Shown here: positions 21,276-44,595 of the stretch, one piece after another
How the letters are laid out: each line of letters opens with the position of its first letter
Numbering within the stretch: position 1 is the stretch's first letter
From: Gluconobacter cadivus
GTDB lineage: Bacteria; Pseudomonadota; Alphaproteobacteria; Acetobacterales; Acetobacteraceae
Direction of reading: 5' to 3'
Assembly (NCBI RefSeq): GCF_015244745.1
Contig: NZ_JABCQI010000003.1
Location: 219,935-283,934 of the forward strand
DNA length: 64,000 bases
Made by a program: the position numbers and the translations under genes
Notes under the pieces: model-generated
What the model saw: the letters and a program-made list of their open reading frames with translations, nothing else
Database searches by the model: none
What the model was told of the DNA's origin: nothing

Positions 21276-21341
21276 GTGAAAGGTGAGCAGAATCAAGTAA
21301 TCCCCCGTGTCAAAAGATGTCAGGAGCATGTGCATGAACAC

Positions 21342-21770: not shown

Positions 21771-22562
21771 ATGATGAAAGTTGCTCTGGGACAGTTTGCT
21801 GTTGCGCCGGACTGGGAAACCAACCAGCGGCAATGTCTGGATCTGATCGCGCAGGCAAAGGCGGGCGGCGCTGAACTGTTGCTCCTGCCCGAAGGTATTC
21901 TGGCGCAGGACATCAACAATCCGGAGCTTCTGCCTCAGACGGCACAGCCGCTGGATGGCCCGTTCATGGAAGGACTGCGTGCCGCCAGCCAGGGCATTGC
22001 CGTGGCGGGATGTGTGAATGTGCCGGACGGGCACGGGCGGTTCTACAACACGCAGTTTGTCCTGCGCGACGGGGCGTTTATCGCGCAGTATCGCAAGCTG
22101 CATCTCTATGATGCGTTCAGCATGAAGGAATCCCAGCGGACATCGCCGGGGCTGGAGCTGCCGCCTGTCGTGCAGATCGGTGACATGAAGGTCGGTCTGA
22201 TGACCTGCTATGATGTGCGCTTCCCGGAACTGGCGCGCCATCTCGCTCTGGCGGGGGCTGAGGCGATATTGTTGCCTGCGGCATGGGTCAGAGGTCCGAT
22301 GAAGGAACGGCACTGGGAAATCATGGCCGTGGCGCGGGCTCTGGAGAACACCTGTTATGTCGTGGCGGTCGGAGAATGTGGCGCGCGCAACTGCGGCGCC
22401 AGCATGGTGGTCGATCCGCTGGGCGTGATTACGCTCGCGTTGGGTGAAGCGCCCGCTCTGGGTTTTGCCACACTGGATCGTGAGCGGATCGCCCATGCGC
22501 GGCGCGTACTCCCTGTTTTGGAAAACCGCCGCTTCGCTGATCCGGTTCTGGCCGACCGGTAA
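21771..22562 (+). CDS. Carbon-nitrogen hydrolase, deaminated-glutathione-amidase (Nit1/YbeM) type
   Basis: The 263-residue protein carries the nitrilase-superfamily triad Glu41 (LLLPEG), Lys109 (YRKLHLYDAF) and Cys146 (MTCYDVRFPE). It matches the Nit1/YbeM group closely, including KLHLYDAF, LPAAWVRGPMKE.HW and the ending VLENRRF. That group hydrolyses the 2-oxoglutaramate-like deaminated glutathione, a repair reaction. Because the next gene is a hydantoinase, an N-carbamoyl-amino-acid hydrolase role was considered, but the motifs favour Nit1. The gene is alone on the plus strand and is convergent with the hydantoinase gene. The first ATG is followed by a second at codon 2. Confidence 0.85.
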   Translation: MMKVALGQFAVAPDWETNQRQCLDLIAQAKAGGAELLLLPEGILAQDINNPELLPQTAQPLDGPFMEGLRAASQGIAVAGCVNVPDGHGRFYNTQFVLRDGAFIAQYRKLHLYDAFSMKESQRTSPGLELPPVVQIGDMKVGLMTCYDVRFPELARHLALAGAEAILLPAAWVRGPMKERHWEIMAVARALENTCYVVAVGECGARNCGASMVVDPLGVITLALGEAPALGFATLDRERIAHARRVLPVLENRRFADPVLADR

Positions 22563-22577
22563 GTCGGCCTTCACTCA

Positions 22578-22599
22578 TGAGGCTGGGGCGGAAGCCTCA
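22578..22599. terminator. Hairpin between convergent amidase and hydantoinase genes
   Basis: TGAGGCT (22578-22584) and AGCCTCA (22593-22599) form a perfect 7-bp stem with an 8-base loop. It lies between the ends of the two convergent genes and touches the hydantoinase stop. No T-run follows on either strand, so termination is only suggested. Confidence 0.35.
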
Positions 22600-24015: not shown

Positions 24016-24669
24016 TCAGCCGCCCCTGAGAATGTCCATGCAGTCTGTCGCGACATTGCGCAGATGCATGACCATGGCGTCGCGCGCGCCGGTGCTGTCG
24101 CCGTCGAGCAGCGCGTCCAGAATGGCCAGATGTTCGCGCGTGGATGCGGGAACACGTCCGAGCGGGTAGCTGACTTCACACAGGCGCGTCAGGGTCCGCA
24201 GTTCGTTGATGGAACGGAGCAGGACCGTGTTGCCCGAGACTTTGGGAAACATCAGATGGATGCGGTCGTCGAGTTGCCACTGCGCGGCGGTCTGTTCGGG
24301 TGTCTCGCCAAGTTCGATGACTTCGCGGCGGAGATTTTCCAGCACTTTGCGATCAAGCCTGTCGAATGACAGGTTGATGGCCTCGCTTTCAAGGATCTCA
24401 CGGATATGGATGCCCTGAAAGAATTCGGTAGCCGAGACGTTCCGCACTGCAAACGAGCGCGAGCCCTGCTTGACCAGAAGATCCTCGGCGGCGAGTCGCA
24501 TCAGGGCCTCGCGAACGGGCGTGCGCGAGATTTCGAGATGATCCGCCAAGCGCCCCTCCACGACGGACATTCCGCCGGGGAGTTCTTTTTCAAGGATCAT
24601 GCGCCGGATCTGTGTATAGGCCAGTTCCGCGAGATTCAGCTCGCGTTCGGCCACCATATAATCGCCCAT
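24016..24669 (-). CDS. GntR-family regulator with FCD domain
   Basis: The 217-residue protein has a winged helix-turn-helix (about 10-72; VVEGRLADHLEISRTPVREALMRL shows the core in part) and a helical FCD ligand domain (about 82-212). Late histidines, in REHLAILDAL and VMHLRN, are typical of the metal-binding FCD pocket. The ATG at 24669 overlaps the stop of the DapA-like gene by one base (TAATG), which fixes the start against a longer frame. The upstream genes are the dehydrogenase operon, so it is the natural local regulator. The shared 9-mer TCGTATACA before 28557 and 37664 fits the GTATAC core often bound by FCD-type GntR proteins. Confidence 0.88.
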   Translation of the reverse strand: MGDYMVAERELNLAELAYTQIRRMILEKELPGGMSVVEGRLADHLEISRTPVREALMRLAAEDLLVKQGSRSFAVRNVSATEFFQGIHIREILESEAINLSFDRLDRKVLENLRREVIELGETPEQTAAQWQLDDRIHLMFPKVSGNTVLLRSINELRTLTRLCEVSYPLGRVPASTREHLAILDALLDGDSTGARDAMVMHLRNVATDCMDILRGG

Positions 24670-25610
24670 TACGGTCCTTCCAGTGCCATTGCATCGTGCA
24701 AGGCTGCTGACAGCTCCTGCCATTCTTCGGGGGCGATGATATCAGAAGCCTTGCGGGTGCGGCAGGAGGGCCATTTGCCCTGCATGACCAGACAGGCCTT
24801 CAGACGCAGCGTAGCCCGGCCCGAGGGCGCACGACCGTAAATCAGGTTCGCCAGCGGCTGGATGGCGTCATGGACCCGGCGCGCAGCGGGCAGGTCGTCA
24901 TTCTGCATCGCGCGCCACAATTTGGCGAGCGCCACGGGGAGGATGGCCGCGAGGCTGACGAGGCTGCCGGTCGTTCCAATGGCGAAGCAGGGCAGGAGGT
25001 GTTCGTCTCCCGACGCCATGACGTCTACATGCGGGGCCACGCGCGCGGCCAGCCTGCGGTGTTTGTCATAGGCGTTGGTTTCCCAGCTTCCTTCCTTGAT
25101 GGCGACGATGCCGGGGAGCCTGAGCAGGCTTTCCAGAATGGGAAGGGAATAGGCCATGCCGCCGCTGCCGACGGAAGATTGATACAGCATGATCGGGGCA
25201 TCGACGGCCTCGCAGATCGCGGCGTGATGGGCGATGATGGCGTCGTGATCCTGTGAGACTGCCCATGAAAACGGCGGGAACACGAGCAGCGCGTCCGCTC
25301 CGGCCGCGATGGCATCACGGGCATGAAGACAGGCTTCGTCGAGGTCTTCGGACAGGATGCCCGAGACGATGATGCGGTCTTTGCCGATGGTGTTGGCGGC
25401 CAGTTCCACGACGCGGCGCTTTTCCTCGCGGGTCAGGAGATGGTTCTCGCCCGCATGACCGTTGCACAGGATGCCCACGATGCCGTCGGCACGGGTGCAG
25501 TCCGACAGATGCTGTATGAAGCGTGCCTCATCCAGCGTTCCGTCTTCCAGAAAGGGCACCAGTGTTGCGGCATATACGCCCCGGAATGGCGTGAGGGAGG
25601 CGGGGATCAT
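24669..25610 (-). CDS. DapA-family lyase/deaminase (dihydrodipicolinate synthase family), copy 1
   Basis: This 313-residue TIM-barrel protein has the Schiff-base Lys172 (VAIKEGSWE) and the catalytic Tyr143 (MLYQSS). The first phosphate-like loop reads GHAGE instead of GTTGE. Members of this subgroup next to D-amino-acid-type dehydrogenases deaminate pyrroline carboxylates, for example 4-hydroxy-pyrroline-2-carboxylate in hydroxyproline breakdown. That role is inferred from the neighbours. The start at 25610 overlaps the DAO gene stop by four bases (ATGA) and gives the proper barrel N-terminus (GVYAATLVPF). A second DapA-type gene lies in the divergent operon at 31438. Confidence 0.85.
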   Translation of the reverse strand: MIPASLTPFRGVYAATLVPFLEDGTLDEARFIQHLSDCTRADGIVGILCNGHAGENHLLTREEKRRVVELAANTIGKDRIIVSGILSEDLDEACLHARDAIAAGADALLVFPPFSWAVSQDHDAIIAHHAAICEAVDAPIMLYQSSVGSGGMAYSLPILESLLRLPGIVAIKEGSWETNAYDKHRRLAARVAPHVDVMASGDEHLLPCFAIGTTGSLVSLAAILPVALAKLWRAMQNDDLPAARRVHDAIQPLANLIYGRAPSGRATLRLKACLVMQGKWPSCRTRKASDIIAPEEWQELSAALHDAMALEGP

Positions 25611-28556: not shown

Positions 28557-29357
28557 TTGAGAGCGATCCGGAACAGTCTTCTGCTGGGGGTCTGTGCTGC
28601 ATCCGTCGTCCTGTGGGGCGGTGGCGTGCAGGCGAGGGACAGTGCCGCCATCCGGGCGAGCGGGCACATCAATATCGGTGTGGAGTCCGGACTGCCCCCG
28701 CTTGGGGAATATGACGATCACAACGAACTTGTGGGATATGATGTCGATATCGGTCGGGCGATTGCGCAGGGTCTGGGTGTTGAGCCGCGCTTTGTGACGC
28801 TCGCTTCCAGCGGTCGCATTCCCTATCTGATGGCCGGGAAAGTCGACATCGTTCTGGGCGGTCTGACGCGGACGCCTGTACGGGCGGATGTCATTGCATT
28901 TTCGCGGCCACTTTATTCCGAGCAGTTTGCGGTTATTGCTCCCGAAGATCGGGGTATCACGTCTTTCGCGGATCTTGAATCGGGCGCACACCGCTTGATT
29001 GAGGTGCGTGGGTCAACGGCGGTTGCGTATCTGCAACAGCATGTTCCCAAGGCGCCGATGCTGCTGCTTGAGAGCTATGCCGATGCCATTCGTGCGCTGG
29101 CGCAGGGGCGTGGCGATGCGATGGTGGATGTCATCGAATATGTCGGACACTACCTGCCGTCGCAGCCTCAGGTACACTGGCGGATTATCCGGGGATTTGC
29201 GCCGCCCGTGGGGGATGACTGCATTGGGATGTCACAGCAGGACGTGGCCCTGCGTGCGGATGTGAATCGTATCCTTGACGGGATGGAGCGCGACGGACGT
29301 CTGGAGCAGATCCATCGTCGCTGGTTCGATCCCGCTGGTGCAGGGCACGCGCCATGA
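28557..29357 (+). CDS. Amino-acid ABC transporter substrate-binding protein, set 1
   Basis: The 266-residue protein has a signal peptide (about 1-26, ending VQA) and a family-3 solute-binding fold, with INIGVESGLPPLGEY and YDVDIGRAIAQGLG, as in HisJ/GlnH-like proteins. It starts with TTG at 28557: AGGGA lies about 11 bases upstream and no in-frame ATG is available. It is followed by two permease genes (four-base overlaps) and an ATPase gene, forming the first full ABC set of a nine-gene operon. The binding pocket cannot be assigned to a ligand. The protein would deliver a polar amino acid or cyclic relative to the inner-membrane permease. Confidence 0.85.
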   Translation: MRAIRNSLLLGVCAASVVLWGGGVQARDSAAIRASGHINIGVESGLPPLGEYDDHNELVGYDVDIGRAIAQGLGVEPRFVTLASSGRIPYLMAGKVDIVLGGLTRTPVRADVIAFSRPLYSEQFAVIAPEDRGITSFADLESGAHRLIEVRGSTAVAYLQQHVPKAPMLLLESYADAIRALAQGRGDAMVDVIEYVGHYLPSQPQVHWRIIRGFAPPVGDDCIGMSQQDVALRADVNRILDGMERDGRLEQIHRRWFDPAGAGHAP

Positions 29358-30013
29358 CGAGGTTGGATTTCCGTCCCGTTTTCGCGCATCTCCCGTTTCT
29401 TCTGGGCGGTGTCGGGGTGACAATCCTGATCGCGACGCTGGCCTTTGTGTTCGGACTGTCGCTCGCGGTCGCACTCGCTGTTCTGCGGTTTGAAAATCAG
29501 GGCGCGTGGCGCAGGCTCAGTCGCAGCTACAGCACGGCCCTGACCAACACGCCGCAGCTCTCTCAGATTTTTGCTGTGTTTTACTGTCTGCCGCTGATGG
29601 GGCTGATGGTCTCGCCGTTTTTGTCAGTCGTGATCGGCATGACGCTCAATGCGGCGGCCTATCTGGCGGATATCCTCGGAGCGGGCATGGCGCGGGTACC
29701 TCCTGTCTATCATGAAGTTGCGCTGACGCTGGGGTTGAACCGGCGTCAGACCTATCTGCGGGTTATCCTGCCCTATGCGGGGCGTGCAATGTTTCCGGCG
29801 CTGGCCAACCATTTTCAGATCATGATTTTGGGTAGTGCCATGGCGTCCATTTTCGGCGTCGAGGATCTGACGGGCCGCGCTTATGATATCGGATCGACAA
29901 CGTTCCGCATCCTTGAAGTTATGCTCGTGACGGGCGGATTGTATGCCCTGCTCTCTTTCGCGCTGACGGGCGTGTTTGCGCTGTTCCGCCGCACGATGGA
30001 GCGGATGGTATGA
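29354..30013 (+). CDS. Amino-acid ABC transporter permease, set 1 first subunit
   Basis: This 219-residue inner-membrane subunit of the HisM/GlnP type has about five hydrophobic segments. The EAA loop that contacts the ATPase reads EVALTLGLNRRQTYLRVILP (residues 117-136). The LTNTPQLSQIF stretch after the first helices is typical of the permease family. It overlaps the binding-protein gene by four bases and the second permease gene by four bases, so the two permeases are coupled and form a heterodimer. The N-terminal SRSYS and FE segments give no further specificity. Confidence 0.88.
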   Translation: MTRLDFRPVFAHLPFLLGGVGVTILIATLAFVFGLSLAVALAVLRFENQGAWRRLSRSYSTALTNTPQLSQIFAVFYCLPLMGLMVSPFLSVVIGMTLNAAAYLADILGAGMARVPPVYHEVALTLGLNRRQTYLRVILPYAGRAMFPALANHFQIMILGSAMASIFGVEDLTGRAYDIGSTTFRILEVMLVTGGLYALLSFALTGVFALFRRTMERMV

Positions 30014-30663
30014 TCGCATTCTCGCAGTATGACATCACCCTTCTGCTTCAGGCGATGGCCCGGACGGTCGTGCTGTCGCTGGGCGGCGGCATTCTCGGGA
30101 TTGCGGGCGCCATCATCCTCACGGCGCTTCGCCTGTCCGAAATACGGGTCATGATACCGCTGCGGGTTCTGGCGGTGGTGTATGTTCAGACCATCCGGCG
30201 CATTCCGTTCATCGTGACGTTGTATATCGTCTTTTTCTGCACGGGCATGATGGGCTTGGATGTGTCGGCAACTGTTGTTGCGATTGGCTCCATTGGTCTG
30301 ATTGCTGCGGCCTATCTCTGCGAAATCCTGCATGGCGGGGTCAAAACGGTTCCGGTGGAGCAGGTCGAAGCCGCACTGGTCCTGAACCTGCCGCTTTGGG
30401 CGCGGTGGCGGTATGTGATCGGGCCGCAGGCGATGTCCGCTGTTGTGCCGCCCGCGGTGGGGTATCTGGTGCTGTTCATCAAGGACACGGCGCTGGCCTC
30501 CCAGATCGGAGTTGTGGAGCTGAGCCAGGCTGGGGTGATCCTGACCAATCGCGGCCTGCCCTCAACGCAGGTCTTCTGTGTGGTTCTGCTGCTCTATTTC
30601 GCGATTTCCTATCCCCTGACCTGCCTGAGCCGCCTGCTGGAGAAACGTATTGCCGTACATTGA
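30010..30663 (+). CDS. Amino-acid ABC transporter permease, set 1 second subunit
   Basis: The 217-residue permease has five hydrophobic segments and the EAA loop EAALVLNLPLWARWRYVIGP (about 120-139). The TIRRIPFIVTLYIVFF stretch is like the GlnP/HisQ consensus for the helix before the EAA loop. It overlaps the first permease by four bases and the ATPase gene by 14 bases. The two permeases are unlike each other, so this is a heterodimeric transporter. No other specificity can be read. Confidence 0.88.
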   Translation: MIAFSQYDITLLLQAMARTVVLSLGGGILGIAGAIILTALRLSEIRVMIPLRVLAVVYVQTIRRIPFIVTLYIVFFCTGMMGLDVSATVVAIGSIGLIAAAYLCEILHGGVKTVPVEQVEAALVLNLPLWARWRYVIGPQAMSAVVPPAVGYLVLFIKDTALASQIGVVELSQAGVILTNRGLPSTQVFCVVLLLYFAISYPLTCLSRLLEKRIAVH

Positions 30664-31423
30664 TGTCCGGGACGTCTGCGTCCGCCACGGGAAAAACGAA
30701 ACCCTGCGTCACGCTGGATTTGAGGCCGAACGCGGGGACATCGTGAGTTTCATCGGGCCGTCCGGTTCCGGGAAAACCACGTTTTTGCGGACGCTGATCG
30801 GGCTTCAGCCGGTCTGGCAGGGGCAGATGGGCGTGAACGGGCGCATTGTGGACATGGCCGCGCCTGCCTCTGCGCGCATTCTGCGGGAGCAGGCTGCGAT
30901 TGTGTTCCAGCAATACGGACTGTTCGGTCATATGTCGGTTCTGCGGAACCTGACGCTGGCGCCGACGGTCGTGGCGAAGCGTTCGCGTCGGGAGGCCGAG
31001 CACGAAGCGCGCGCGCTGCTGGAGCGTCTGGGGCTGGCGGACAAGGCGGACGTGCTGCCAGCCGATCTGTCGGGCGGCCAGAAACAGCGTGTGGCGATTG
31101 CACGCGCGCTCATGCTTCGCCCGGCGCTGCTTCTGCTCGATGAGCCGACATCGGCGCTCGATCCGCACAAGGTGCGTGATGTCGGCGTGCTGCTGCGCGA
31201 TCTGGCGCAGGACGGCATGACCATCATTCAGGTTTCCCACGCGATGGGTGTCGTCTCATCGCTGTCGGACAGGATCGTTCTTCTGGAAGACGGTCAGGTC
31301 AGAGCCGTCGGAACGGGGTGCGGGGATGCGGCGCAACAGCCCGATATTGCGGCGTTCATGAATACCCATGGCGGTGATGCCGCCACGGACCCGGCCGGAT
31401 CGCGGTCGGACCCGGAACATTGA
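30650..31423 (+). CDS. Amino-acid ABC transporter ATP-binding protein, set 1
   Basis: The 257-residue ATPase has Walker A GPSGSGKTT (near residue 36-44), a Q-loop, the signature LSGGQKQR, Walker B LLLLDEPTSALDP and the H-loop SHAMG. It starts with TTG at 30650, inside the end of the permease gene. The C-terminus is about 15-20 residues longer than usual, and its Asp/Gly-rich tail contains GGDAATDPAGSRS. It energises the set-1 importer. It is followed after 14 bases by the second DapA-family gene, so transport and catabolic genes are in one operon. Confidence 0.9.
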   Translation: MPYIDVRDVCVRHGKNETLRHAGFEAERGDIVSFIGPSGSGKTTFLRTLIGLQPVWQGQMGVNGRIVDMAAPASARILREQAAIVFQQYGLFGHMSVLRNLTLAPTVVAKRSRREAEHEARALLERLGLADKADVLPADLSGGQKQRVAIARALMLRPALLLLDEPTSALDPHKVRDVGVLLRDLAQDGMTIIQVSHAMGVVSSLSDRIVLLEDGQVRAVGTGCGDAAQQPDIAAFMNTHGGDAATDPAGSRSDPEH

Positions 31424-31437
31424 GGAAGGAAAGACCC

Positions 31438-32328
31438 ATGAAGTTTCGTGGCACATATACCGTCATGATCACGCCTTATGACAGCGAAGGACGCGTTGAC
31501 GTTCCGGGGCTGCGGCGCTTCACCGACTGGCAGATCGCACAGGGCATCGCAGGTCTGATCCCGCTGGGTTCAACCGGCGAGTTCCTGTCGCTGACGGATG
31601 ACGAACGCACACTGGTTGCACAGACCGTCATCGAGCAGGCTGCAGGCCGCGTTCCGGTGTTCATCGGAACAGGTGCGGAAAACACCTATGACGTGATCCG
31701 CTACAGCCAGGAGGCCGAAAAGCTCGGGGCTGATGGCGTCATGATCATCCCGCCGTTCTATTCCACGCCAACGGATGACGAACTGTTCGTTCATTATCGC
31801 CGGGTGTCGGATGCGATTGGGCTGCCGATCATGCTCTACAACAACCCGGCCACGGCGAATGTGGATCTGAAGCCGGAACTCGTGGCGCGTCTGTCCCATA
31901 TCGACAACTGCTGCCTGATCAAGGAATCCACGATGGATGTAACCCGCGTGCGGGACATCATTCGTCTGTGTGGCGACCGGCTTTCGGTCTTTGGCGGCAT
32001 CATGGGCTTTGAGAGCTTTCTTGAAGGCGCCATCGGGTGGGTCGCAGTGGCCTCCAACGTGGCGCCGCATGTCATGAGTGAGATTTTTAATCTCTGTGAC
32101 GGTTACAAGGACATCGGAAAGGCGCGGGAGATGTATTTCCGCCATGTGCCGCTGATCCAGTTCGTGGGCGGGCAGGGGTATGTCTCGGGAACGAAAGCTC
32201 TGCTGAAGCACATGGGCTTCGATGTCGGTGGTCCGCGCGCGCCGCGTCTGCCGCTGCCGGAAGCGGATGATGCCCGCGCTCTTCAGATCGTCCGCGATCT
32301 GGACCTCCGGTTTGAAGAAAGCGTCTGA
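31438..32328 (+). CDS. DapA-family lyase, copy 2
   Basis: This 296-residue TIM-barrel protein has Lys162 (CCLIKEST) as the Schiff-base lysine, Tyr134 (MLYNNP) and the STGE loop (PLGSTGEFLSL). It is closer to the general dihydrodipicolinate synthase or N-acetylneuraminate lyase family than copy 1, because it keeps the canonical GSTGE and YNNP loops. GAGGAAGGA lies 7-15 bases before the ATG at 31438, which was chosen over a frame-extended start at 31420. Lying among amino-acid transport genes and the fusion dehydrogenase, it is probably a catabolic deaminase or aldolase rather than a lysine-biosynthesis enzyme. Confidence 0.87.
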   Translation: MKFRGTYTVMITPYDSEGRVDVPGLRRFTDWQIAQGIAGLIPLGSTGEFLSLTDDERTLVAQTVIEQAAGRVPVFIGTGAENTYDVIRYSQEAEKLGADGVMIIPPFYSTPTDDELFVHYRRVSDAIGLPIMLYNNPATANVDLKPELVARLSHIDNCCLIKESTMDVTRVRDIIRLCGDRLSVFGGIMGFESFLEGAIGWVAVASNVAPHVMSEIFNLCDGYKDIGKAREMYFRHVPLIQFVGGQGYVSGTKALLKHMGFDVGGPRAPRLPLPEADDARALQIVRDLDLRFEESV

Positions 32329-32329
32329 T

Positions 32330-33178
32330 ATGGGGGGCGGTCCTGTGTCAGGTCTGATCCGGGGAGCGGGGTTGCTCTGTGCGGTCCTGGCTTTCGGGGC
32401 GCAGGCGGCACCGTGTCCGCAGGCTGTTGAGGGGCTGATCTCTCCGCCGCATCTGGTCATGGCGACCAACCCGACGCTGCCGCCTCTGCAATATGTGACG
32501 GTGGACGGGCAGATCGCCGGAATGCGGATCGAACTCGGCAACGAAATCGCCCGCAGGCTCTGTCTGACGCCGGTCACGCTCTCGACGTCCTTTGCGCAGC
32601 TCACACTCGGGCTGCTCGAAAAACGGTGGGACGTCATCAATACGGGGATGTTCTACACTGCCCAGCGGGCGCGGCTGATGGAGATGATCCCCTACGAAAT
32701 CCAGGCGATCAGCGTGTCTCTCAACGATGATTCCGCGCTGCATCCCGCACGACTTGAGGATCTGTCCGGCTCTTCGATCGGGGTCGAGATGGGTGGAATA
32801 GAAGAACACCATGCCCGCGAGGCCGATCAGGCCCTGCGGAATGCCGGACGGCCGGGCTTTGATATCAAGACGTTCCAGAACGTGGGCATCGCCTTTGCGG
32901 CCCTGCGCGCGCGGCAGGTGACGGCGGTGTTTTCCATTGATGCGGTCGCACGGCGCAACGCTCTTCAGGGTGGCGTGAAGCCTGTTCTGAAAGGGCTGTA
33001 TCCCACGCCCGTTGCTCTGGCACTGCGGGACCCGGCTCTGGCGCAGCGTCTGGCGGATGTTCTGGAAGCCATGCGTGAGGACGGAACGCTGGAGCGGCTT
33101 ATGGCGCCTTATGGCGTCGTACCCTTTCCCGGACGGATTGTGGTTTCAGGACCGTCCCATCCGTCCGACATGCACTGA
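32330..33178 (+). CDS. Amino-acid ABC transporter substrate-binding protein, set 2
   Basis: The 282-residue family-3 binding protein has a signal peptide (GAGLLCAVLAFGAQA) and the fold landmarks LVMATNPTLPPLQYV and GMRIELGNEIARRL. It begins one base after the DapA-2 stop (TGATATG), which settles the start at 32330. The mature protein carries a possible disulfide (Cys near residues 29 and 83). It is followed after 38 bases by a single permease gene. It is unlike the set-1 binding protein, so the operon appears to import two ligands or to use two affinities. Confidence 0.83.
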   Translation: MGGGPVSGLIRGAGLLCAVLAFGAQAAPCPQAVEGLISPPHLVMATNPTLPPLQYVTVDGQIAGMRIELGNEIARRLCLTPVTLSTSFAQLTLGLLEKRWDVINTGMFYTAQRARLMEMIPYEIQAISVSLNDDSALHPARLEDLSGSSIGVEMGGIEEHHAREADQALRNAGRPGFDIKTFQNVGIAFAALRARQVTAVFSIDAVARRNALQGGVKPVLKGLYPTPVALALRDPALAQRLADVLEAMREDGTLERLMAPYGVVPFPGRIVVSGPSHPSDMH

Positions 33179-33216: not shown

Positions 33217-33948
33217 ATGCAGATCTGGAGCTGGCACGGCTTCTTCACCTATCTCGGCAGCCCCTATATCTTCCGGGGCGCGCTTATCACGGTCTATATG
33301 ACGGCCGTCTCGATGGTGATGGGGTTTCTTCTGGGGCTGCTGATTGCGGTCATGAAGCGCTCGCAGCGCCGTCTGCTGTCCTGGCCTGCGCGGTTTTATG
33401 TCTGGTTTTTCCGGGGCACACCGCTGCTGGTCCAACTGGTCGTGATCTATACCGGTCTGCCGAAGCTGGATATCCGGCTGAGTGTTCTGGCGTGTTCGAT
33501 TATTGGGCTGACACTGAACGAGGCAGCGTATCTCGCGGAAATTATCCGTGCGGGGCTGAATGCCGTGCCAACCGGCCAGATCGCGGCGGCACGGGCGCTG
33601 GGCCTGAGCGAGCGGCAGATCGCCTGGCGCATCGCATTTCCGCAGGCGTTCCGGCTCATCATCCCGCCGCTGGGCAATTCGGTGAATGGTCTGCTCAAGA
33701 CGACCAGTGTGACCTCGGTCATTTCCATGGAGGAACTGATGCAGCGCAGCCAGATTCTGGTGCAAGACCAGTTCATGGTGCTGGAGCTGTTTTCCGTGGC
33801 GGCGCTGTATTACCTGCTGATGACAACGGCATGGGACTTCCTGCAACGGCGGATCGAGCATTATGCGGAGCGGCCCTATCGTCGCCAGCAGAAAACCGCA
33901 GCGGTTGAGGCCATCGAATTTCCCGCGACGACGCAGGATGCGCGCTGA
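33217..33948 (+). CDS. Amino-acid ABC transporter permease, set 2
   Basis: The 243-residue permease has five hydrophobic segments, the FFRGTPLLVQL motif of the family and the EAA loop region AARALGLSERQIAWRIAFP (about 127-145). Only one permease is present in this set, so it probably acts as a homodimer with the ATPase at 36818. The C-terminal 30 residues are charged (RRQQKTAAVEAIEF). Its stop overlaps the fusion-protein start by one base (TGATG), which places the dehydrogenase inside the transporter operon. Confidence 0.88.
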   Translation: MQIWSWHGFFTYLGSPYIFRGALITVYMTAVSMVMGFLLGLLIAVMKRSQRRLLSWPARFYVWFFRGTPLLVQLVVIYTGLPKLDIRLSVLACSIIGLTLNEAAYLAEIIRAGLNAVPTGQIAAARALGLSERQIAWRIAFPQAFRLIIPPLGNSVNGLLKTTSVTSVISMEELMQRSQILVQDQFMVLELFSVAALYYLLMTTAWDFLQRRIEHYAERPYRRQQKTAAVEAIEFPATTQDAR

Positions 33949-36821
33949 TGTCGGACCGGCTGAACTTCACGTTCAATGACACCAGCGTCTCCGCAAAACC
34001 CGGACAGACCCTGACGGCTGCGCTGATGGCCGCAGGCAGAATTGCGCACCGGACGGCGCCGGATGGATCGGAGCGTGGTCCGTTCTGCGGGATCGGGGCC
34101 TGTCAGGAGTGTCTGCTAGAGGTGGACGGGCAGATGTCCCGCCGGGGATGCATGACGCCGGTGCGGGACGGGATGCGGGTTCGCAGTAATGACCGTCTTC
34201 CGGATGCGGCTGTTTCAGCCTGTCTGGCGAAGGGTGAGGAGCGTCTGGCTCAACATGCCTGCGATGTACTGGTGGTGGGTGCGGGCCCGGCGGGTCTGGT
34301 TGCAGCGACCGAACTGGCGCGCGGTGGGATGGATGTTCTCATCGTGGATGAACGCCATATTCCGGGCGGCCAGTATTTCAAACAGAACGCGGTGCATCCG
34401 GAACGGCAGGATGATCAGGGTCGCAAGGGGAGGTACCTGATTGAAGCCATGCGGGCCAGTGGCGCGCGGCTGTGGTACGACACGCTCGTCTGGAGCGCCC
34501 ATCGCGAAGAGGGCGCTCTCGTCATCGGTGGGCTGCGGGATGGTGAGGCGTTCTATATCCGCACGCAGCATATCATCGTGGCGACGGGTGCACAGGAAAC
34601 GCCTGCGGCCCGACCGGGCTGGACGTTGCCAGGTGTCATCACGACGGGGGCCGGACAGACAATGCTGCGCGCCTATGAAGCGGTGGCTCCGGGGCGGATC
34701 GTTATTGCCGGGAATGGCCCGCTCAATCTTCAGCTTGCGGCGGAACTGGTCCGGCGTGGAGCGGATGTGGCGGCCGTTGTGGATTCAGCACCTGCGGCCG
34801 TAAAGCGGCCCTTTCTGGCCACACGGCTATCGGTGGCGTCGCCCCGTCTTGCGCTCGTGGGGATGCGACATCTGGCGACATTGCGTCGGGCCGGGGTACC
34901 GGTGCTGTGGGGAAGCGTTGTGACCCGCATCGAGGGCGAGGATCGTGTCGAGCGCGTGGCGGTGAAGCAGCGGGGAGGCGCAGAACGCTGGATCGAGACG
35001 CAGACTGTCTGCCTCGGAGACGGGTTCGTTCCTGCCAGCGAACTGCCACGGCTTCTGGGCTGCCGACAGCAGATCCGGAACTGGCCTGTGAGCCATCCCG
35101 AGACGGGCCGAGAACCAGACGGAAAGACCGATCAGGCGGATGTGTCCGTTATTGGTGAGGCCGGGCGTTTTGGGGGTGCTTTTCTGGCGCAGGCTCAAGG
35201 GGTGCTGTGTGCGGCCAGACTGCTGGAACGGGCAGGAAAACCGGTCCCGTCCGGTTTGGAACGCAGTCGGCGGGTATATCGCGATAATGCGCGTTTTCAG
35301 GAGCTTCTGTGGACGCTGTATGATCCGGTTGTCTCGCTGCCGTCCCCGCAGGAGACGACCATCCTGTGCCGATGCGAATGCGTGACCGCAGGGACTGTCC
35401 GGGCCCGCGTGTCGGAAGATGGGATCACCGATCTGGCGTCTCTTAAACGAGCGACACGGGCCGGAATGGGGCGGTGTCAGGGGCGGTTCTGTCAGGCTTC
35501 GCTGATGAAGATGCTGCCGGAACCGAAAAACGAAAAGGATTTTACCGCACCGCAGATCCCCCTGCGTCCGGTTCCGGTTGCGGCCCTCGCGCGTCAAAAA
35601 CCGGAATGGCGGGGGCATGTCCGGGTTTCCATTCCATCGGGGCTGGGAGCAGTGGGGCCATCGGCTTTCGGCGCTGTCGAGACTGTGGATGTCGTGGTCG
35701 TGGGTGGCGGGATCGTCGGGCTTTTCACGGCGCTGTTTCTCGCCGAAGCCGGGAAAAGTGTCGTGGTGCTCGAACGTGGTCGGGCAGGAGCGCTGGCCTC
35801 GGGCGGCAATGCGGGCAGTCTGCACGCGCAGCTCATGGCATTCGACGCCAGCGCGGATACGGACGGACCGTCCATGCCTGCGCGGACGCTGGCGTTGCAG
35901 CGGGAATCCATCCGCATGTGGGAGGCGCTGCGCACAACGTTCGATCGCGATCTGGAGATCAAGGTCAGCGGCGGGTTGGTGGTGGCGGAAACCGAAGCCG
36001 ATATGGACCGTCTGCGTAGCAAGGTCGCGGTCGAACAGGCCCTTGGCGTCGATGCGCGGCTTCTGGCATCGGACGAATTGCACGGGATCGAGCCCAATCT
36101 GAGAGATGGCTTTCTGGGCGGGGCGTATTGCTCCGAGGAAGGCAAGATCAATCCCATGGCGGCAACGCAGGCTGTTCTGGCGCGGGCACGGCGCGCGGGC
36201 GTGCGGGTTGAGGAACTCACAGCCTTGTCCGCAATCCAGCCCGACGGCACACGGTTTCATGTCAGCGCGGGGTCAAGGCGCTGGTCGGCCGGAGCGGTGG
36301 TGAATGCGGCCGGTGCCTATGCGGGAGAAGTCGCCGGGCTGGTCGGACGTCGGCTGCCGGTTTTCGGTGCCCCGTTGCAGATGATCGTGACCGAGCCTGT
36401 GGCTCCGCTGGTCTTTTCGCTTCTGGCCCATGCAAGCCGGCATCTCACGCTTAAACAGGCCACGAATGGCTCGCTGCTGATCGGCGGGGGATGGAGTGCG
36501 GGGCTTGATCCGGTGCACGGGCATCCGCGACCGCTGCGGGAAAATCTGGAAGGAAATCTCTGGGTGGCACAAAGGCTGGTTCCGGCGCTGGGGGCCGTGA
36601 ATGTCGTTCGGAGCTGGGCTGCGATGAACATCGATATCGACGGGGCTCCGATCCTTGGAGAAAGTCCGGACGTGCCGGGCTTTTTCACGGCCGTAACGGC
36701 CAATGGTGTCACGCTCGCTCCGGCCATGGGGCGGCATGTCGCGGATATGGTTCTGCGCCGCTCCGAACGTCCTGATCTGGAGATCTTTTCTCCCGCACGC
36801 TTTTATGGAGATCCGTCATGA
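33948..36821 (+). CDS. Three-domain fusion dehydrogenase: 2Fe-2S + FAD/NAD-BFD + DAO
   Basis: This 957-residue protein joins three units that are separate subunits at 25607-28429. Residues 1-90 form the 2Fe-2S domain (Cys47, 52, 55 and 68, in FCGIGACQEC). Residues about 100-545 form the FAD/NAD protein: VVGAGPAGLVAA near 105, IAGNGPLNLQ near 263, and the BFD cysteines in CRCECV near 474 and GRCQGRFC near 510. After a linker, residues about 575-957 form the DAO dehydrogenase (VVVVGGGIVGLFTAL near 580, GWSAGLDPVHG, FFTAVTANGVTLAPAMGRH). The order 2Fe-2S, FAD/NAD, DAO matches transcription order in the split operon. A single gene fixes the stoichiometry at 1:1:1. Substrate unknown. Confidence 0.9.
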   Translation: MSDRLNFTFNDTSVSAKPGQTLTAALMAAGRIAHRTAPDGSERGPFCGIGACQECLLEVDGQMSRRGCMTPVRDGMRVRSNDRLPDAAVSACLAKGEERLAQHACDVLVVGAGPAGLVAATELARGGMDVLIVDERHIPGGQYFKQNAVHPERQDDQGRKGRYLIEAMRASGARLWYDTLVWSAHREEGALVIGGLRDGEAFYIRTQHIIVATGAQETPAARPGWTLPGVITTGAGQTMLRAYEAVAPGRIVIAGNGPLNLQLAAELVRRGADVAAVVDSAPAAVKRPFLATRLSVASPRLALVGMRHLATLRRAGVPVLWGSVVTRIEGEDRVERVAVKQRGGAERWIETQTVCLGDGFVPASELPRLLGCRQQIRNWPVSHPETGREPDGKTDQADVSVIGEAGRFGGAFLAQAQGVLCAARLLERAGKPVPSGLERSRRVYRDNARFQELLWTLYDPVVSLPSPQETTILCRCECVTAGTVRARVSEDGITDLASLKRATRAGMGRCQGRFCQASLMKMLPEPKNEKDFTAPQIPLRPVPVAALARQKPEWRGHVRVSIPSGLGAVGPSAFGAVETVDVVVVGGGIVGLFTALFLAEAGKSVVVLERGRAGALASGGNAGSLHAQLMAFDASADTDGPSMPARTLALQRESIRMWEALRTTFDRDLEIKVSGGLVVAETEADMDRLRSKVAVEQALGVDARLLASDELHGIEPNLRDGFLGGAYCSEEGKINPMAATQAVLARARRAGVRVEELTALSAIQPDGTRFHVSAGSRRWSAGAVVNAAGAYAGEVAGLVGRRLPVFGAPLQMIVTEPVAPLVFSLLAHASRHLTLKQATNGSLLIGGGWSAGLDPVHGHPRPLRENLEGNLWVAQRLVPALGAVNVVRSWAAMNIDIDGAPILGESPDVPGFFTAVTANGVTLAPAMGRHVADMVLRRSERPDLEIFSPARFYGDPS

Positions 36822-37552
36822 TCACGCTGGATACTGTGACGAAATCATATGGCGCCTTTCAGGTGCTCAAGGGCTGTTCGGCGGAGATCGGCAGAGGGGA
36901 GGTTGTGGTTGTCTGCGGCCCTTCGGGTTCGGGTAAGTCCACGCTCATCAAATGCATCAATGCGCTGGAGACGTTCGAGAGCGGGCAGATCTACGTTGAT
37001 GGCATGGCCGTGCGTTCCGCGAACACCGATCATTCGGCGCTGCGGGCGAAAGCGGGGATGGTCTTTCAGAGCTTCGAGCTTTTTTCCCATCTGAGCATTC
37101 TGGACAACATCATGCTGGCCCCGCGTCTGGTCCAGAAACGGGGGAAGGAAGAGCTTCGCGAGCATGCGGAAACGCTTCTACGCCGGGTCGGGCTGGAACA
37201 GCATGCGGACAAATATCCGATCGCCCTGTCCGGCGGCCAGCAGCAGCGGGCGGCGATCGCACGCGCTCTGGCGATGAAGCCGGATGTAATGCTGTTCGAT
37301 GAGCCGACATCGGCGCTCGATCCTGAAATGGTGCAGGAAGTCCTTCAGGTCATGATGGAGCTGGCGCGCGAGGGCATGACCATGATGTGCGTTACCCACG
37401 AGATGGGATTCGCGCGTCAGGTCGCGACGCGGATTCTGTTCGTGGATGCGGGCGAGATCGTCGATGACTGCCCGGCGGCAGATTTTTTTGCAGGGCGCTG
37501 TTCGGCCAGAGCGCAGGCTTTTCTGCGGTTTGAGGAGGCGCACCCCAGCTAA
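36818..37552 (+). CDS. Amino-acid ABC transporter ATP-binding protein, set 2
   Basis: The 244-residue ATPase has Walker A GPSGSGKST, signature LSGGQQQR, Walker B VMLFDEPTSALDP and H-loop THEMGFARQVA, all typical of GlnQ/HisP. It overlaps the fusion gene by four bases (ATGA), so it ends the operon that starts at 28557. It powers the set-2 permease, 2.9 kb upstream in the same transcript. After its stop come 111 bases holding the TCGTATACA motif before the next gene. Confidence 0.92.
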   Translation: MITLDTVTKSYGAFQVLKGCSAEIGRGEVVVVCGPSGSGKSTLIKCINALETFESGQIYVDGMAVRSANTDHSALRAKAGMVFQSFELFSHLSILDNIMLAPRLVQKRGKEELREHAETLLRRVGLEQHADKYPIALSGGQQQRAAIARALAMKPDVMLFDEPTSALDPEMVQEVLQVMMELAREGMTMMCVTHEMGFARQVATRILFVDAGEIVDDCPAADFFAGRCSARAQAFLRFEEAHPS

Positions 37553-37613: not shown

Positions 37614-37663
37614 AAGAGAATATGAGCTGAGGACTGTCAGGCGATCCGGTGGGAGAAGGCGCT

Positions 37664-38932
37664 GTGCTTGAAAAGACTTCCTGTTGTGAGAAAACGGCGA
37701 GCGAACGTCTGGGTCATGTCATCGACCGGGATTTCGAACTGCGTCAGGTGCCGTTCCTTCAGGATCTCGTCGGCGTCCCGTCGGATAATCCGCCCGGTGA
37801 CTGCGCGCCGCACGCCCGGTTTTCCGCCGACAGGCTGCGGGCACTCGGTTTTGAAGTTGAATGTCATGCTGTCCCGCAGGACTTCGTGCAACGGCACGGT
37901 ATGCAGAGCGCAACGAATCTGATCATCCGGGAGCGTTTCGGAAATGGCAGCGGCCCTGTCATTGCGCTCAATGCGCATGGGGACGTGGTTCCCCCTGGCG
38001 AGGGCTGGGTGCATGATCCGTATGGCGGCATCATTGAAGATGGCAGGCTTTATGGACGGGGGGCCGCGGTCTCGAAGTCAGACTTCGCAACCTATGCCTT
38101 TGCGTTGCGCGCGCTGAAGGAAGCCGGTTCTGACCTGTCCGGCACGGTCGAGCTTCATCTGACCTATGACGAGGAAATCGGTGGTCATGTCGGGCCGGGT
38201 TGGCTTCTCTCGGAAAAGCTGAGCACTCCCGACTACGTCATCAGTGCCGGTTTTACCTATGACGTGATGATTGCCCATAATGGCAGCCTTCAGCTTGATG
38301 TGGCTTTCACGGGCAAAGCGGCGCATTCCGCATGGCCCGAGACGGGCGCCGATGCCATTGAGGCGGCGTGTCGTGTGATGACGGCTCTGTACGTCTATCG
38401 GGACGGGCTGGCGAAGACGGTCTGTTCCATTCCGGGGATTGAATCGCCGACGCTCGTCATTGGTACGATCAATGGCGGCGTTGCAGCAAACGTCGTGCCC
38501 GAACAGGCGACATTCCGGCTTGAGCGCCGGATTTTGCCAGACGAAAAAGCGGCCGAGGTCGAGGCGGATCTGCGGCAGCTTATTGTGAATGCGACAGATG
38601 TGCCGGGCGTGAGTTGCGTCGTAACGCAGCATCTTCTGGCGTTGCCACTGGTTCCGGATGAGGGGCAGGCCCCTTTGATCGGAGCCTTGCAGGACGCTGC
38701 CGAAGCGGTGTTCGGGGAACGGATTGCCGTCAAGGGTATGCCGTTGTTCACGGATGCCAGAATTTACAGCAATGCGGGCTATCCGACCGTTCTATACGGG
38801 GCTGGTCCGCGTCGTCTTCAGGATGCCAATGGCCATCGTGCGAACGAGCATGTGGTTCTGGAAGATATGCGTCGTGCGACGAAGGTTGTCGCAACGGCAC
38901 TTTCCCGCCTTTTACGTTCTGAATCCGAGTAA
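37664..38932 (+). CDS. M20-family metallo-amidohydrolase (ArgE/DapE-like)
   Basis: A GTG at 37664 is preferred over one at 37649, because GGAGAAGG lies 5-12 bases ahead of it. The product is about 422 residues. Numbered from 37649, the metal site has His110 (NAHGDVV), Asp145 (bridging) and Glu175-Glu176 (DEEIGGH), with a late His in HRANEHVV. A dimer domain sits about 215-335 (TGKAAHSAWPE). M20 enzymes cleave N-acyl, N-carbamoyl or peptide bonds of amino acids; an N-carbamoyl-amino-acid hydrolase working with the hydantoinase is possible but not shown. The TCGTATACA motif lies just upstream. Confidence 0.83.
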   Translation: MLEKTSCCEKTASERLGHVIDRDFELRQVPFLQDLVGVPSDNPPGDCAPHARFSADRLRALGFEVECHAVPQDFVQRHGMQSATNLIIRERFGNGSGPVIALNAHGDVVPPGEGWVHDPYGGIIEDGRLYGRGAAVSKSDFATYAFALRALKEAGSDLSGTVELHLTYDEEIGGHVGPGWLLSEKLSTPDYVISAGFTYDVMIAHNGSLQLDVAFTGKAAHSAWPETGADAIEAACRVMTALYVYRDGLAKTVCSIPGIESPTLVIGTINGGVAANVVPEQATFRLERRILPDEKAAEVEADLRQLIVNATDVPGVSCVVTQHLLALPLVPDEGQAPLIGALQDAAEAVFGERIAVKGMPLFTDARIYSNAGYPTVLYGAGPRRLQDANGHRANEHVVLEDMRRATKVVATALSRLLRSESE

Positions 38933-38974: not shown

Positions 38975-39029
38975 ATCCGACTGTTTCTGACTGATATCCC
39001 TGTGCTGCGCCAGGGCGATGGAGCCGATT

Positions 39030-41603
39030 ATGAACATCAGGAAACTTGCGCTTTACTCTACGTTCCTCTCCGTCAGCGTCTGTAGTGGATCGGTTTTTGC
39101 AGCCTCGGAAAAAGCCGTGCCGGAACCGGCGAAGGCCTCCGTCCACAAAGCACCGTCCAAAACGGTATCTCCGAAGACGCGCAGGTCGTCTGCGGCGAAA
39201 CATCGGCCTGCGGATGTCATCGCCGGAAGCGAAGAAGGCGTGATCGTCACCGGAACGCATGCGTCCAACCGCCACGCCCGTCAAAGCACCAGCCCGATCA
39301 CGGTCCTGTCCAGTGCGACGCTGCGTCGCTCAGGCATGATGAACCTCGCCGATGCGCTGACCAAGACCTATCCGTCCATCAATATGAGCACGATGGGCAA
39401 TGACGCCGGTGCACTGACGTCCTTCATCCGGATGCGCGGCCTCAATCCGAATCAGGTTCTGGTTCTGCTGGATGGCAAGCGTCGGCACACCACGGCCAAC
39501 ATCAATGCCGATGCCGGTCCGAATTTTGGCGCGACGCCCGTGGATCTGAACATGATCCCGTCCAACATGATCGATCATATCGAGGTTCTCGAAGACGGCG
39601 CCGCTGCGATGTATGGCTCTGACGCTATTGCCGGTGTGGTGAACATCATCACCAAAAAGCAGGATCATGGGCTGAATATGAGCGCCCAGACGGGGGCAAA
39701 CGCCTATAACGGCGATGGTTGGCAATACCAGCTCAACGCTGATGGTGGATTCAAACTCGGCCGTGACGGCTATGCTCATATTGCGGCACAGGTTTACCAT
39801 ACGGACCATTTCGTAACCAACACGGTTGATAATCGTCTGGCGGGTTATGTCCCACCGGGGGCAGCGAACGAGCTGTATACCGGGTCGGTCAAAGTGCCCA
39901 AGAACTCCAACAAGATCATGAGTACGCCGGAAGAAACGCGCGAAAATCTGGGGATCGATTTCGGCAAGAACCTGACCGATGACATCCAGTTTTACGGGCA
40001 GATCACCTACGCGCACCGCCATGCGGAAGCGTATGAGAATTATCGTGTTCCCTCGGGTGCCAGCGCCAGCAATCCAGAGTTGTTTCCATATGGCTATTCG
40101 CCGTTGGAGACGATCGACGAGAACGATTATGCTGCGACGCTGGGCCTGAAGGGTCGTCATCTCCTCGGTTTCGACTGGGATCTGAGCAGCACCTGGGGTG
40201 AGGATCTGGACAAGATTTCTAACCAGAACACCACCAATCCGAACATGTACGCCGCCACGGGCTACACACCGACGACCGTGCGGACCTCCAATTTCCGTCT
40301 GGCGCAGTGGACGAACAATCTCGATCTGCGCCGGAACTTCAAGATTGCCAACGTGGTTCCTGTCACGGTGGCTTTCGGTGGCGAACAGCGTCTAGAACAG
40401 TATACCATTCTAGCGGGCGAACCTGCGTCTTACGAATATGGCGGCACTTCTGCGCTGGCGGGGCTGACGCCGCAGGACGCTGGCAAGTGGGATCGTGATG
40501 TCTGGGCGGCTTATCTGGATGGCGATTTCCATCTGCTGAAGAACTGGGATCTCGATTTCGCCGGTCGTTTCGAACACTATACCGACGTCGGAAATACCGA
40601 GAACGGCAAGGTTTCCACGCGTTACGATATCACCAAGCGTATTGGCCTGCGTGCGACGATCAGCAACGGTTTCCGCGCGCCGACGATGGCAGAACAGCAT
40701 TACAGCGCCATCAATGTCGGGCCGACATCGGTGTTGGGATTGTTGCCGGTTTCGTCTTCCGAAGCGCGTGCGACAGGGGCGTCTCCCCTCAAGCCCGAAC
40801 GCTCGACCAGTGCGACAGGTGGCATTGTTCTTGAGCCGATAGATGGTTTCCATGTCGAGGCCGATGTCTATCAGATCAACATCCGCGATCGCGTCGTGCA
40901 GGGTGGTAACGTGACGGGTCCGGCTGCGATTGCAGCATTGGAAGGCATGGGCGTTTCGCTTCCGGCTCTGACGCAGCTTTCCGAAAACGCCGTGCAGACC
41001 TATTACTTCACGAACGGTGCCAGCACGCGGACGCAGGGTCTGGATATCAAGGCGGATTACATGTTCCGCATGCATCGCTTCGGCAATCTGAGCCTGTCGA
41101 TGGCGCTGGACCTGAACCGTACGCGTCTGTCGCATAACGGAATGTCTGCAACGGGATCACCGCTGCTGAATGCTCAGAATATCGCTTACCTCACGACGGC
41201 CTATCCGCGAAGCAAGATCATTCTGAATGCGTTCTGGACAATCGGGAAATGGGACGTGAACCTGCGCCAGACCCGTTATGGCGAAACGACCGGTATGATG
41301 ACGTATCAGGACTGGACGCCTACGGCGGCGATCTGTCCAATTGATGGCAAGCAGCTTCAGCAGTCCAGCAGCTGTTTTGCGCAGTTCAAGAACTCTCCGC
41401 GCTGGCTGACGGATCTGGAGATCGGGTATCGCGTCAATTCGCGCTGGCATCTGGCGGTGGGGGCGAACAACATCTTCAATATCCGTCCGCGCAAGCTGCC
41501 GGGTGAGCTGAACCAGCTTGGTGCCAATCCTTATGATACGTTCTCGTCTCAGGTGCCGATGACGGGTGGGTATTATTACGGGCGTGTGAACTTCACGCTC
41601 TGA
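39030..41603 (+). CDS. TonB-dependent receptor linked to the catabolic island
   Basis: The ATG at 39030 has GGAG 7-10 bases ahead and starts a signal peptide (KLALYSTFLSVSVCSGSVFA). The 857-residue protein has a Lys/Ala-rich linker, the TonB box EGVIVTGTH, a plug (about 75-190) with IRMRGLNPNQVLVLLDGKRRH and the VEVLEDGAAAMYGSDAIAGVV-type end of the plug, then a barrel ending in NFTL. The NPNQVLVLLDGKRRH plug subtype belongs to the broad receptors often found beside catabolic genes. It follows the M20 gene in the same direction. A ligand related to the island substrate is inferred from position only. A Cys pair in the barrel lies in ICPIDG and SSCFAQ. Confidence 0.87.
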   Translation: MNIRKLALYSTFLSVSVCSGSVFAASEKAVPEPAKASVHKAPSKTVSPKTRRSSAAKHRPADVIAGSEEGVIVTGTHASNRHARQSTSPITVLSSATLRRSGMMNLADALTKTYPSINMSTMGNDAGALTSFIRMRGLNPNQVLVLLDGKRRHTTANINADAGPNFGATPVDLNMIPSNMIDHIEVLEDGAAAMYGSDAIAGVVNIITKKQDHGLNMSAQTGANAYNGDGWQYQLNADGGFKLGRDGYAHIAAQVYHTDHFVTNTVDNRLAGYVPPGAANELYTGSVKVPKNSNKIMSTPEETRENLGIDFGKNLTDDIQFYGQITYAHRHAEAYENYRVPSGASASNPELFPYGYSPLETIDENDYAATLGLKGRHLLGFDWDLSSTWGEDLDKISNQNTTNPNMYAATGYTPTTVRTSNFRLAQWTNNLDLRRNFKIANVVPVTVAFGGEQRLEQYTILAGEPASYEYGGTSALAGLTPQDAGKWDRDVWAAYLDGDFHLLKNWDLDFAGRFEHYTDVGNTENGKVSTRYDITKRIGLRATISNGFRAPTMAEQHYSAINVGPTSVLGLLPVSSSEARATGASPLKPERSTSATGGIVLEPIDGFHVEADVYQINIRDRVVQGGNVTGPAAIAALEGMGVSLPALTQLSENAVQTYYFTNGASTRTQGLDIKADYMFRMHRFGNLSLSMALDLNRTRLSHNGMSATGSPLLNAQNIAYLTTAYPRSKIILNAFWTIGKWDVNLRQTRYGETTGMMTYQDWTPTAAICPIDGKQLQQSSSCFAQFKNSPRWLTDLEIGYRVNSRWHLAVGANNIFNIRPRKLPGELNQLGANPYDTFSSQVPMTGGYYYGRVNFTL

Positions 41604-43187: not shown

Positions 43188-43284
43188 AAAACTTCACATG
43201 TTACGGCCCATCTTTTGCCACATGGACGGCCCAGCGTTCTGTAGGGTGCCGACTCCCGTTATCGCCCCGTTTCGCGAGGATGCC

Positions 43285-44592: not shown

Positions 44593-44595
44593 GCC

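Follow-up and report, generated by a model that had tools for sequence, protein, structure and literature searches.

We analysed a 64,000-nucleotide stretch of the Gluconobacter cadivus genome (contig NZ_JABCQI010000003.1, positions 219,935 to 283,934; hereafter the window, with positions counted from its first letter), which contains one gene for a predicted dehydrogenase of 957 amino acids (aa) with three subunits joined in a single chain. Next to it, in a divergent operon on the minus strand (28429-25607), lie separate genes for the same three parts in the same order, as the initial annotation of this DNA had described. The fused gene stands among genes for an amino-acid-type ATP-binding cassette (ABC) transporter and a DapA-family enzyme. 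The 957-residue protein belongs to a single-chain branch of a known kind of enzyme; this branch is widespread and uncharacterised, and the protein is its representative in Gluconobacter.

A predicted dehydrogenase encoded as one chain

The fused gene is a single intact open reading frame. A Pfam search of its product found Fer2_4 at residues 3-82 (89 bits), Pyr_redox_2 at residues 106-380 (103 bits), Fer2_BFD at residues 472-523 (35.8 bits, cut-off 26) and DAO at residues 581-934 (237 bits), which bears out the order read by the initial annotation: a 2Fe-2S (Fer2) part, a flavin adenine dinucleotide (FAD)/nicotinamide adenine dinucleotide (NAD) part with a BFD domain, and a DAO part. The C-terminus is DAO and not GcvT, the alternative raised at that time; GcvT has no match among the 17 Pfam families listed for the protein at E<=0.001. 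The cofactor motifs noticed earlier also held up, with the Fer2 cluster cysteines (C47, C52, C55, C68), the BFD cluster cysteines (C474, C476, C510, C515) and the three dinucleotide motifs (G111/G113/G116, G255/G257, G586/G588/G591) all invariant across 80 aligned homologues. AlphaFold2 modelled the whole fusion as one confident chain of known fold (predicted local distance difference test score, pLDDT, 91.5). With its three parts, cofactor motifs and single-chain model, the fusion is a predicted dehydrogenase of the wider 2Fe-2S/FAD/DAO kind.

The closest homologue, from Gluconobacter albidus, is 95% identical, and in seven other genomes of the genus that carry the gene (78-95% identity) the frame is open with no internal stop. 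The ratio of nonsynonymous to synonymous substitution rates (dN/dS) is 0.08-0.20 for the whole gene in five comparisons, and 0.07-0.18 for the stretch between the BFD and DAO parts in four of the five, the fifth having no finite dS. Given the open frames and the low dN/dS of both the gene and this stretch, a frameshift artefact between the parts is very unlikely.

The fused form is widespread in Proteobacteria

Of 7996 entries scored in a protein search with the fusion, 1285 were matches at E<=1e-60; coverage is known for the best 120 of the 1285, and 119 of these span 94-100% of the query. Scanning one-per-species genomes with peptide patterns located 47 fused loci, in acetic acid bacteria, Devosia, Thalassospira, Lichenibacterium, Kaistia and many Rhodobacterales, and also in Vibrio, Granulosicoccus and other gammaproteobacterial bins; one locus, on a short contig of a Lentisphaeria bin, is perhaps mis-binned. 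The fusion is also present on 14 plasmids of Rhizobium, Azospirillum, Variovorax, Aureimonas and Agrobacterium, six of which (L063-L067, L147) were taken into the comparison of loci below. The fused form occurs in alpha-, beta- and gammaproteobacteria. Its distribution is patchy: in evenly drawn genomes we found it in 45 of 200 Acetobacteraceae and in 3 of 289 genomes of the class (window's own genome included). The rarity implied by the initial annotation thus gave way to occurrence in many proteobacteria, however patchy, and the fusion is therefore not a local oddity but a branch of its own within a known type of enzyme. One distant fused copy (G289:C1:1560763-1563597) was read with one in-frame TGA.

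Genes of the locus

The genes around the fusion are listed in Table 1. The stop of perm2 overlaps the start of the fused gene, whose 3' end in turn overlaps ATP2 by four bases. The split genes overlap as well: the Fer2 frame runs into the FAD gene (start 28179) and stops at 28166, and the FAD and DAO genes share four bases. The thirds of the fusion are 40% (Fer2), 29% (FAD) and 33% (DAO) identical to the matching split subunits. The start of SBP2 is our choice within an open reading frame at 32222-33178. SBP1, the binding protein of the split-module transporter, matches a nopaline-binding protein among others, and the same divergent arrangement of this transporter is annotated at loci elsewhere.

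Table 1. Features of the Gluconobacter cadivus window around the fused dehydrogenase gene.
Feature	Position	Strand	Basis or remarks
Three-part fusion dehydrogenase, 957 aa	33948..36821	+	Pfam, aligned motifs, AlphaFold2
dapA1, DapA/DHDPS-family Schiff-base enzyme accompanying the fusion	31420..32328	+	DapA family, 199.6 bits; curated dapA cut-off 206.15
SBP2, amino-acid-type substrate-binding protein	32324..33178	+	Resembles PDB amino-acid-binding proteins
perm2, amino-acid ABC permease	33217..33948	+	Orthologues annotated 'amino acid ABC transporter permease'
ATP2, amino-acid ABC ATPase	36818..37552	+	Annotation of orthologues
M20 ArgE/DapE-family deacylase	37649..38932	+	TIGR01910, 228 bits; cut-off 217.6
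TonB-dependent receptor	39018..41603	+	Same place in Gluconobacter, Gluconacetobacter and Asaia loci
Split Fer2 subunit, 87 aa	28166..28429	-	Pfam
Split FAD/NAD-BFD subunit, 473 aa	26758..28179	-	Pfam
Split DAO subunit, 384 aa	25607..26761	-	Pfam
dapA2, DapA-family, mostly accompanies the split dehydrogenase	24669..25610	-	Family match and DapA tree
GntR-family regulator	24016..24723	-	
HydA, dihydropyrimidinase/hydantoinase-family hydrolase, end of split operon	22597..23985	-	TIGR02033, 501 bits; cut-off 393
Split-module amino-acid ABC transporter	28557..31423	+	SBP1 28557-29357; permeases 29354-30013 and 30010-30663; ATPase 30650-31423

Two carbamoylase candidates were rejected. The nitrilase at 21771-22562, considered as a D-carbamoylase beside HydA, matches the NCBIfam deaminated glutathione amidase family at 410 bits (cut-off 355), and a gene of its type stands beside HydA in one of eight related stretches, one of the eight (L158) ending too early to judge. 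The M20 enzyme, considered as an L-carbamoylase, matches ArgE/DapE deacylases best. Elsewhere in the window, DUF1800 and DUF1501 genes stand in tandem at 43081-45819, after a glutathionylspermidine-synthase-family gene (41973-43187), and a 665-aa protein (19344-21341, minus strand) has no Pfam match at E<=1e-8 and resembles an outer-membrane porin, by impression only.

Recurrent gene neighbours

Fifteen queries from the window (the parts of both dehydrogenases and their neighbours), together with DUF3830, a phosphotriesterase-family hydrolase (PTE) and six distinct proline racemases, were run against 56 fused loci; L054-L062 were left out of the counts as repeats of other loci. DapA1 was the most constant partner, with a match of at least 200 bits in 50 of the 56 loci, followed by SBP2 in 43. 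Among the 14 loci from acetic acid bacteria, DapA1, split DAO and M20 were each found in 13. The other 42 loci had DapA1 in 37, perm2, SBP2, DUF3830 and GntR in 30 each, ATP2 in 29, PTE in 21, HydA in 13, M20 in four (with one strong match only, at 447 bits in L066) and split DAO in two. An example of DUF3830 near the fusion is L028:12930-13343. HydA was found in none of the 14 acetic-acid-bacterial loci because most fetched flanks end before its place; it closes the split operon in all eight of the longer related stretches.

In the 42 other loci HydA and PTE, both of which we take to belong to the amidohydrolase superfamily, mostly replace each other: 11 loci have HydA only, 19 PTE only, two both and ten neither. 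On two annotated plasmids the operon comprises GntR, a binding protein, a permease, a DapA-family gene, the fusion, an ATPase, hydA and DUF3830, and the same genes recur, differently ordered, on an Azospirillum plasmid. At other loci the split module has transporter genes that diverge from Fer2-FAD-DAO-DapA, and it is accompanied by hydA (3/3), GntR (3/3) and DUF3830 (1/3). We found no report of the fusion-containing gene set as a whole, and no paper naming DUF3830, in the open-licence literature.

Phylogeny of the fused and split forms

For a tree of the DAO part we left out 22 redundant locus prefixes, reducing 108 rows to 79, and left out the same prefixes from a tree of the FAD part; a second, reduced DAO tree of 71 rows omits eight more long-branched prefixes, four of them racemase-linked. 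In the DAO trees all fused proteins and two Roseicitreum DAO proteins form one clade (support 100/98 with 79 rows, 100/99 with 71), the split-module proteins form their own (100/100 and 100/99), and a third group contains a Ti-plasmid opine-region protein. The quick FAD tree recovers the same three groups, with Shimodaira-Hasegawa-like approximate likelihood ratio test (SH-aLRT) values of 99, 96 and 96. The fused and split clades each hold alpha-, beta- and gammaproteobacterial members. Constraining fused and split proteins together costs 2.86 log units (approximately unbiased (AU) test, p 0.148), and constraining the split and opine-type groups together costs 2.41 (p 0.208). The fused and split forms may thus share an ancient common origin as sisters, a relation that the AU test does not reject.

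The plasmid pRA01 of Roseicitreum antarcticum (L075:155-2963) has the parts in the same order as the fusion, but in two genes instead of one: the first encodes a Fer2-FAD-BFD chain of 563 aa and the second, which overlaps it, a DAO chain of 376 aa. This form falls outside the fused clade in the DAO tree and inside it in the FAD tree, and may be either an intermediate on the way to the fusion or the product of a later split.

Some genomes carry both forms. Among 200 Acetobacteraceae genomes, taken to be the same set for both draws, 45 have the fusion, 18 the split DAO (E<=1e-70) and ten both (Fisher p 0.0014, kinship ignored); in four of the ten the two lie within about 10 kb and in six on different contigs. 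The two modules also adjoin on a Rhizobium rhododendri plasmid (L147) and in Marinibacterium (L041), so that the pairing has been kept or has arisen more than once.

DapA partners

A quick DapA tree (20 prefixes left out, 81 rows reduced to 56) suggests that each dehydrogenase mostly has a DapA of its own. The fusion-linked DapA1 rows form one group, joined by rows L073 and L075, for which no fusion is at hand, and the split-linked DapA2 rows form another, except for two split-type loci with other DapA proteins (L071, L111). Of ten racemase-linked DapA rows, eight fall in a clade that groups with DapA1 (SH-aLRT 92, with L074) and two fall with the genome's other DapA.

The Schiff-base Lys and the Tyr of the DHDPS/HypD family are present in all 45 DapA1 rows, one of which is not fusion-linked. 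The position after the YNxP motif, which in the genome's other DapA is an Arg that we take to have a role in biosynthetic DapA (DHDPS), is Thr in 42 of the 45 and Ser in three. With this replacement and a score below the curated cut-off (Table 1), DapA1 was rejected as a biosynthetic DapA.

Two DapA1-like genes (L072:7992-8882 and L073:7986-8879; 63 and 50% identical) have acyl-CoA dehydrogenase and MaoC genes as neighbours, in stretches that contain no fusion. L072 also has relatives of SBP2, perm2 and ATP2, and the fusion may therefore be exchanged there for another oxidation system.

Relation to known enzymes

Among the closest described systems is the heterotrimeric D-hydroxyproline dehydrogenase of Pseudomonas (P. 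aeruginosa) and Azospirillum (PMC4575208, available portion) and of Streptomyces (SCO6289-6291). Like the fusion it consists of Fer2, FAD/BFD and DAO parts with similar cysteine and ADP motifs, and the fusion shows the cluster patterns of the heterotrimers, Cys-X4-Cys-X2-Cys-X11-12-Cys in Fer2 and Cys-X-Cys...Cys-X4-Cys in BFD, although the BFD spacing is X33 as against X15-20 in the available portion of PMC4575208. The Streptomyces hydroxyproline regulon combines GntR, DAO, Fer2, FAD, a DapA-type deaminase and a proline-racemase-family epimerase (PMC6608401, available portion), and thus shares GntR and DapA-family partners with the fused loci. Unlike the fusion, the D-hydroxyproline enzyme has three chains, published as alpha4 beta4 gamma4, and is fed by the epimerase. 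The modules around the fusion resemble the hydroxyproline plan, with a hydrolase where that plan has the epimerase.

The opine dehydrogenases OdhABC, NoxABC and OoxABC have the same three parts and the R-x-W motif discussed below, but as separate subunits; their Ti-plasmid relative falls in a separate clade, and the available portion of PMC4575208 describes no DapA/HydA module for them. Archaeal L-proline dehydrogenase (1y56) provides a close solved complex for both halves, its A chain matching fusion residues 7-275 (the Fer2 and FAD parts) by sequence, but its DAO part is a separate chain and identity is about 20-23%. Sarcosine oxidase SoxABDG shares the Fer2-FAD order and a DAO partner; its alpha chain ends in GcvT, which was not found in the fusion. 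The GcvT end is also given in a table in the available portion of PMC9045290. The fusion scores far below the SoxA and SoxB cut-offs, and SoxA (TIGR01372) was rejected at 101 bits against 1164 and for want of GcvT. Glycine oxidase ThiO (TIGR02352) was likewise set aside, at 131 bits against 250.8 and with Asn in the place of its Arg. Within the available portions of the open-licence literature we found no description of a single-chain form of this kind of dehydrogenase.

Putative substrate-binding residues

The Arg of glycine oxidase that, we assume, binds the substrate carboxylate aligns with Asn (Asn894) in 58 of 58 fused proteins, Glu in 21 of 21 split proteins and Arg in five of six racemase-linked proteins. 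Two Ti-plasmid opine-region proteins have one Glu and one Arg here, and L-proline dehydrogenase has Tyr. Because of this variation between the three groups, the mode of substrate binding probably differs between the fused and the split enzymes, and also between both of these and the hydroxyproline enzymes, and the Asn and Glu make a change of substrate between the fused and split forms plausible. All 58 fused and all 21 split proteins have the R-x-W motif (R888-x-W890 in the fusion); such a motif has been proposed as a flavin mononucleotide (FMN) site (PMC4575208, available portion).

A proposed hydrolase-primed catabolic module

The recurrent partners of the fusion are an amino-acid ABC transporter, DapA1, GntR, often HydA or PTE, and often DUF3830. 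We consider the fusion most likely to be a putative single-chain dehydrogenase of an uncharacterised, hydrolase-primed amino-acid catabolic module. On balance we favour a single-chain enzyme of the heterotrimeric 2Fe-2S/FAD-NAD-BFD/DAO type that oxidises an imported amino-acid-type substrate to an imine or 2-oxo product, which the DapA enzyme then cleaves or deaminates. The substrate would enter through SBP2, the permease and the ATPase, and, if cyclic or N-acylated, would be hydrolysed by HydA (or PTE) and the M20 deacylase in place of the epimerase of the hydroxyproline pathway. The FAD of the DAO domain would accept two electrons. From R888-x-W890 an FMN is predicted to lie between the DAO domain and the FAD domain, in line with the proposal made for the heterotrimers, and a respiratory acceptor would receive the electrons by way of the 2Fe-2S centres and the second flavin. 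DapA1, with its Schiff-base Lys and Tyr but Thr for the biosynthetic Arg, would handle the product. The split module (Fer2, FAD, DAO, DapA2, HydA and its own transporter) may be a parallel counterpart that serves a related substrate or carries out a second step. Joining the parts would fix them at 1:1:1 and allow a single gene to be placed between the transporter genes for permease and ATPase.

More tentatively, these genes may represent a widespread undescribed proteobacterial pathway. In it, a hydantoinase or PTE (with DUF3830) would open a cyclic or N-acylated amino acid, the fusion would oxidise it and a dedicated DapA-type lyase would split it; acetic acid bacteria would pair this pathway with a second dehydrogenase-lyase set, of the split kind, that carries out the next step or acts on the other stereoisomer.

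Several observations weigh against this interpretation. The fused loci are not a random sample, having been gathered with peptide patterns and by choice, and ten of the 42 loci outside acetic acid bacteria, some of them short contigs, lack both HydA and PTE. In the Gluconobacter window HydA sits in the split operon, away from the fusion, and DUF3830 was not found in the window's genome, so the module here falls short of the full set seen elsewhere. An Asp of AncQR, which presumably binds the alpha-amino group of the ligand, is shifted one place in the alignment with SBP2, and an ordinary alpha-amino acid ligand is not secure. A second fold comparison of the fusion (VIA-align) was nearly confined to residues 575-956 and hardly covered the N-terminal two thirds.

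The strongest alternative, though an unlikely one, is that D-hydroxyproline or its derivatives are taken up ready-made and need no epimerase. The enzyme kinds match those of the Streptomyces operon and of the P. aeruginosa and Azospirillum heterotrimer (PMC6608401 and PMC4575208, available portions), and DapA1 groups with the eight racemase-linked DapA rows, most of which share a YNNP motif. However, DapA1 is only 25-34% identical to the DapA proteins of racemase loci, and proline racemase has no match in the window's genome (the same family search was positive in 51 of 192 genomes of the class) and none in the 56 fused loci (E<=1e-5). The carboxylate position also differs, Arg in most racemase-linked proteins against Asn in every fused one, although the Tyr of L-proline dehydrogenase indicates that Arg is not universal. 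D-hydroxyproline, a substrate considered in the initial annotation, is thus disfavoured.

We regard as slightly less probable still that the fusion is a flavin-containing opine dehydrogenase, splitting N-carboxyalkyl amino acids into an amino acid and a 2-oxo acid, with lactams opened by HydA or PTE. The opine-type group, which includes the Ti-plasmid relative and no characterised sequence, is the nearest clade to the fused one in the reduced DAO tree (94/80, not starred), and SBP1 matches a nopaline-binding protein. We know of no role for a DapA-type enzyme in opine breakdown, and the fused and opine-type clades are separate and long-branched, in an order that the AU test leaves unsettled. 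Opine enzymes are nevertheless heterotrimers with the same motifs (PMC4575208, available portion).

Finally, it is very unlikely that the fusion was built from neighbouring genes in this lineage by local duplication of the split set, as the initial annotation supposed: the two forms adjoin here and in 13 of 14 acetic-acid-bacterial fusion loci (the 14th, L051, is a contig end), but matching parts are only 29-40% identical, 35 of the 45 Acetobacteraceae genomes with the fusion lack a split DAO at E<=1e-70, and local origin does not fit two well-supported clades that each span three proteobacterial classes.

Significance

Characterised members of this enzyme kind have separate subunits, have been hard to purify and can exchange subunits (PMC4575208, available portion). 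Production and study should be simpler with a natural single-chain form, and the fusion shows an evolutionary end-point of heterotrimer assembly. The most useful new point is the module of amino-acid transporter, hydrolase (HydA or PTE), fusion and DapA-type enzyme. The recurrent company of DapA1, HydA or PTE, DUF3830 and an amino-acid transporter outlines a catabolic module that we have not found described in the open-licence literature. It provides a concrete route to the function of DUF3830, and to functions for many genes annotated only as 'FAD-dependent oxidoreductase' or 'dihydrodipicolinate synthase family protein'.

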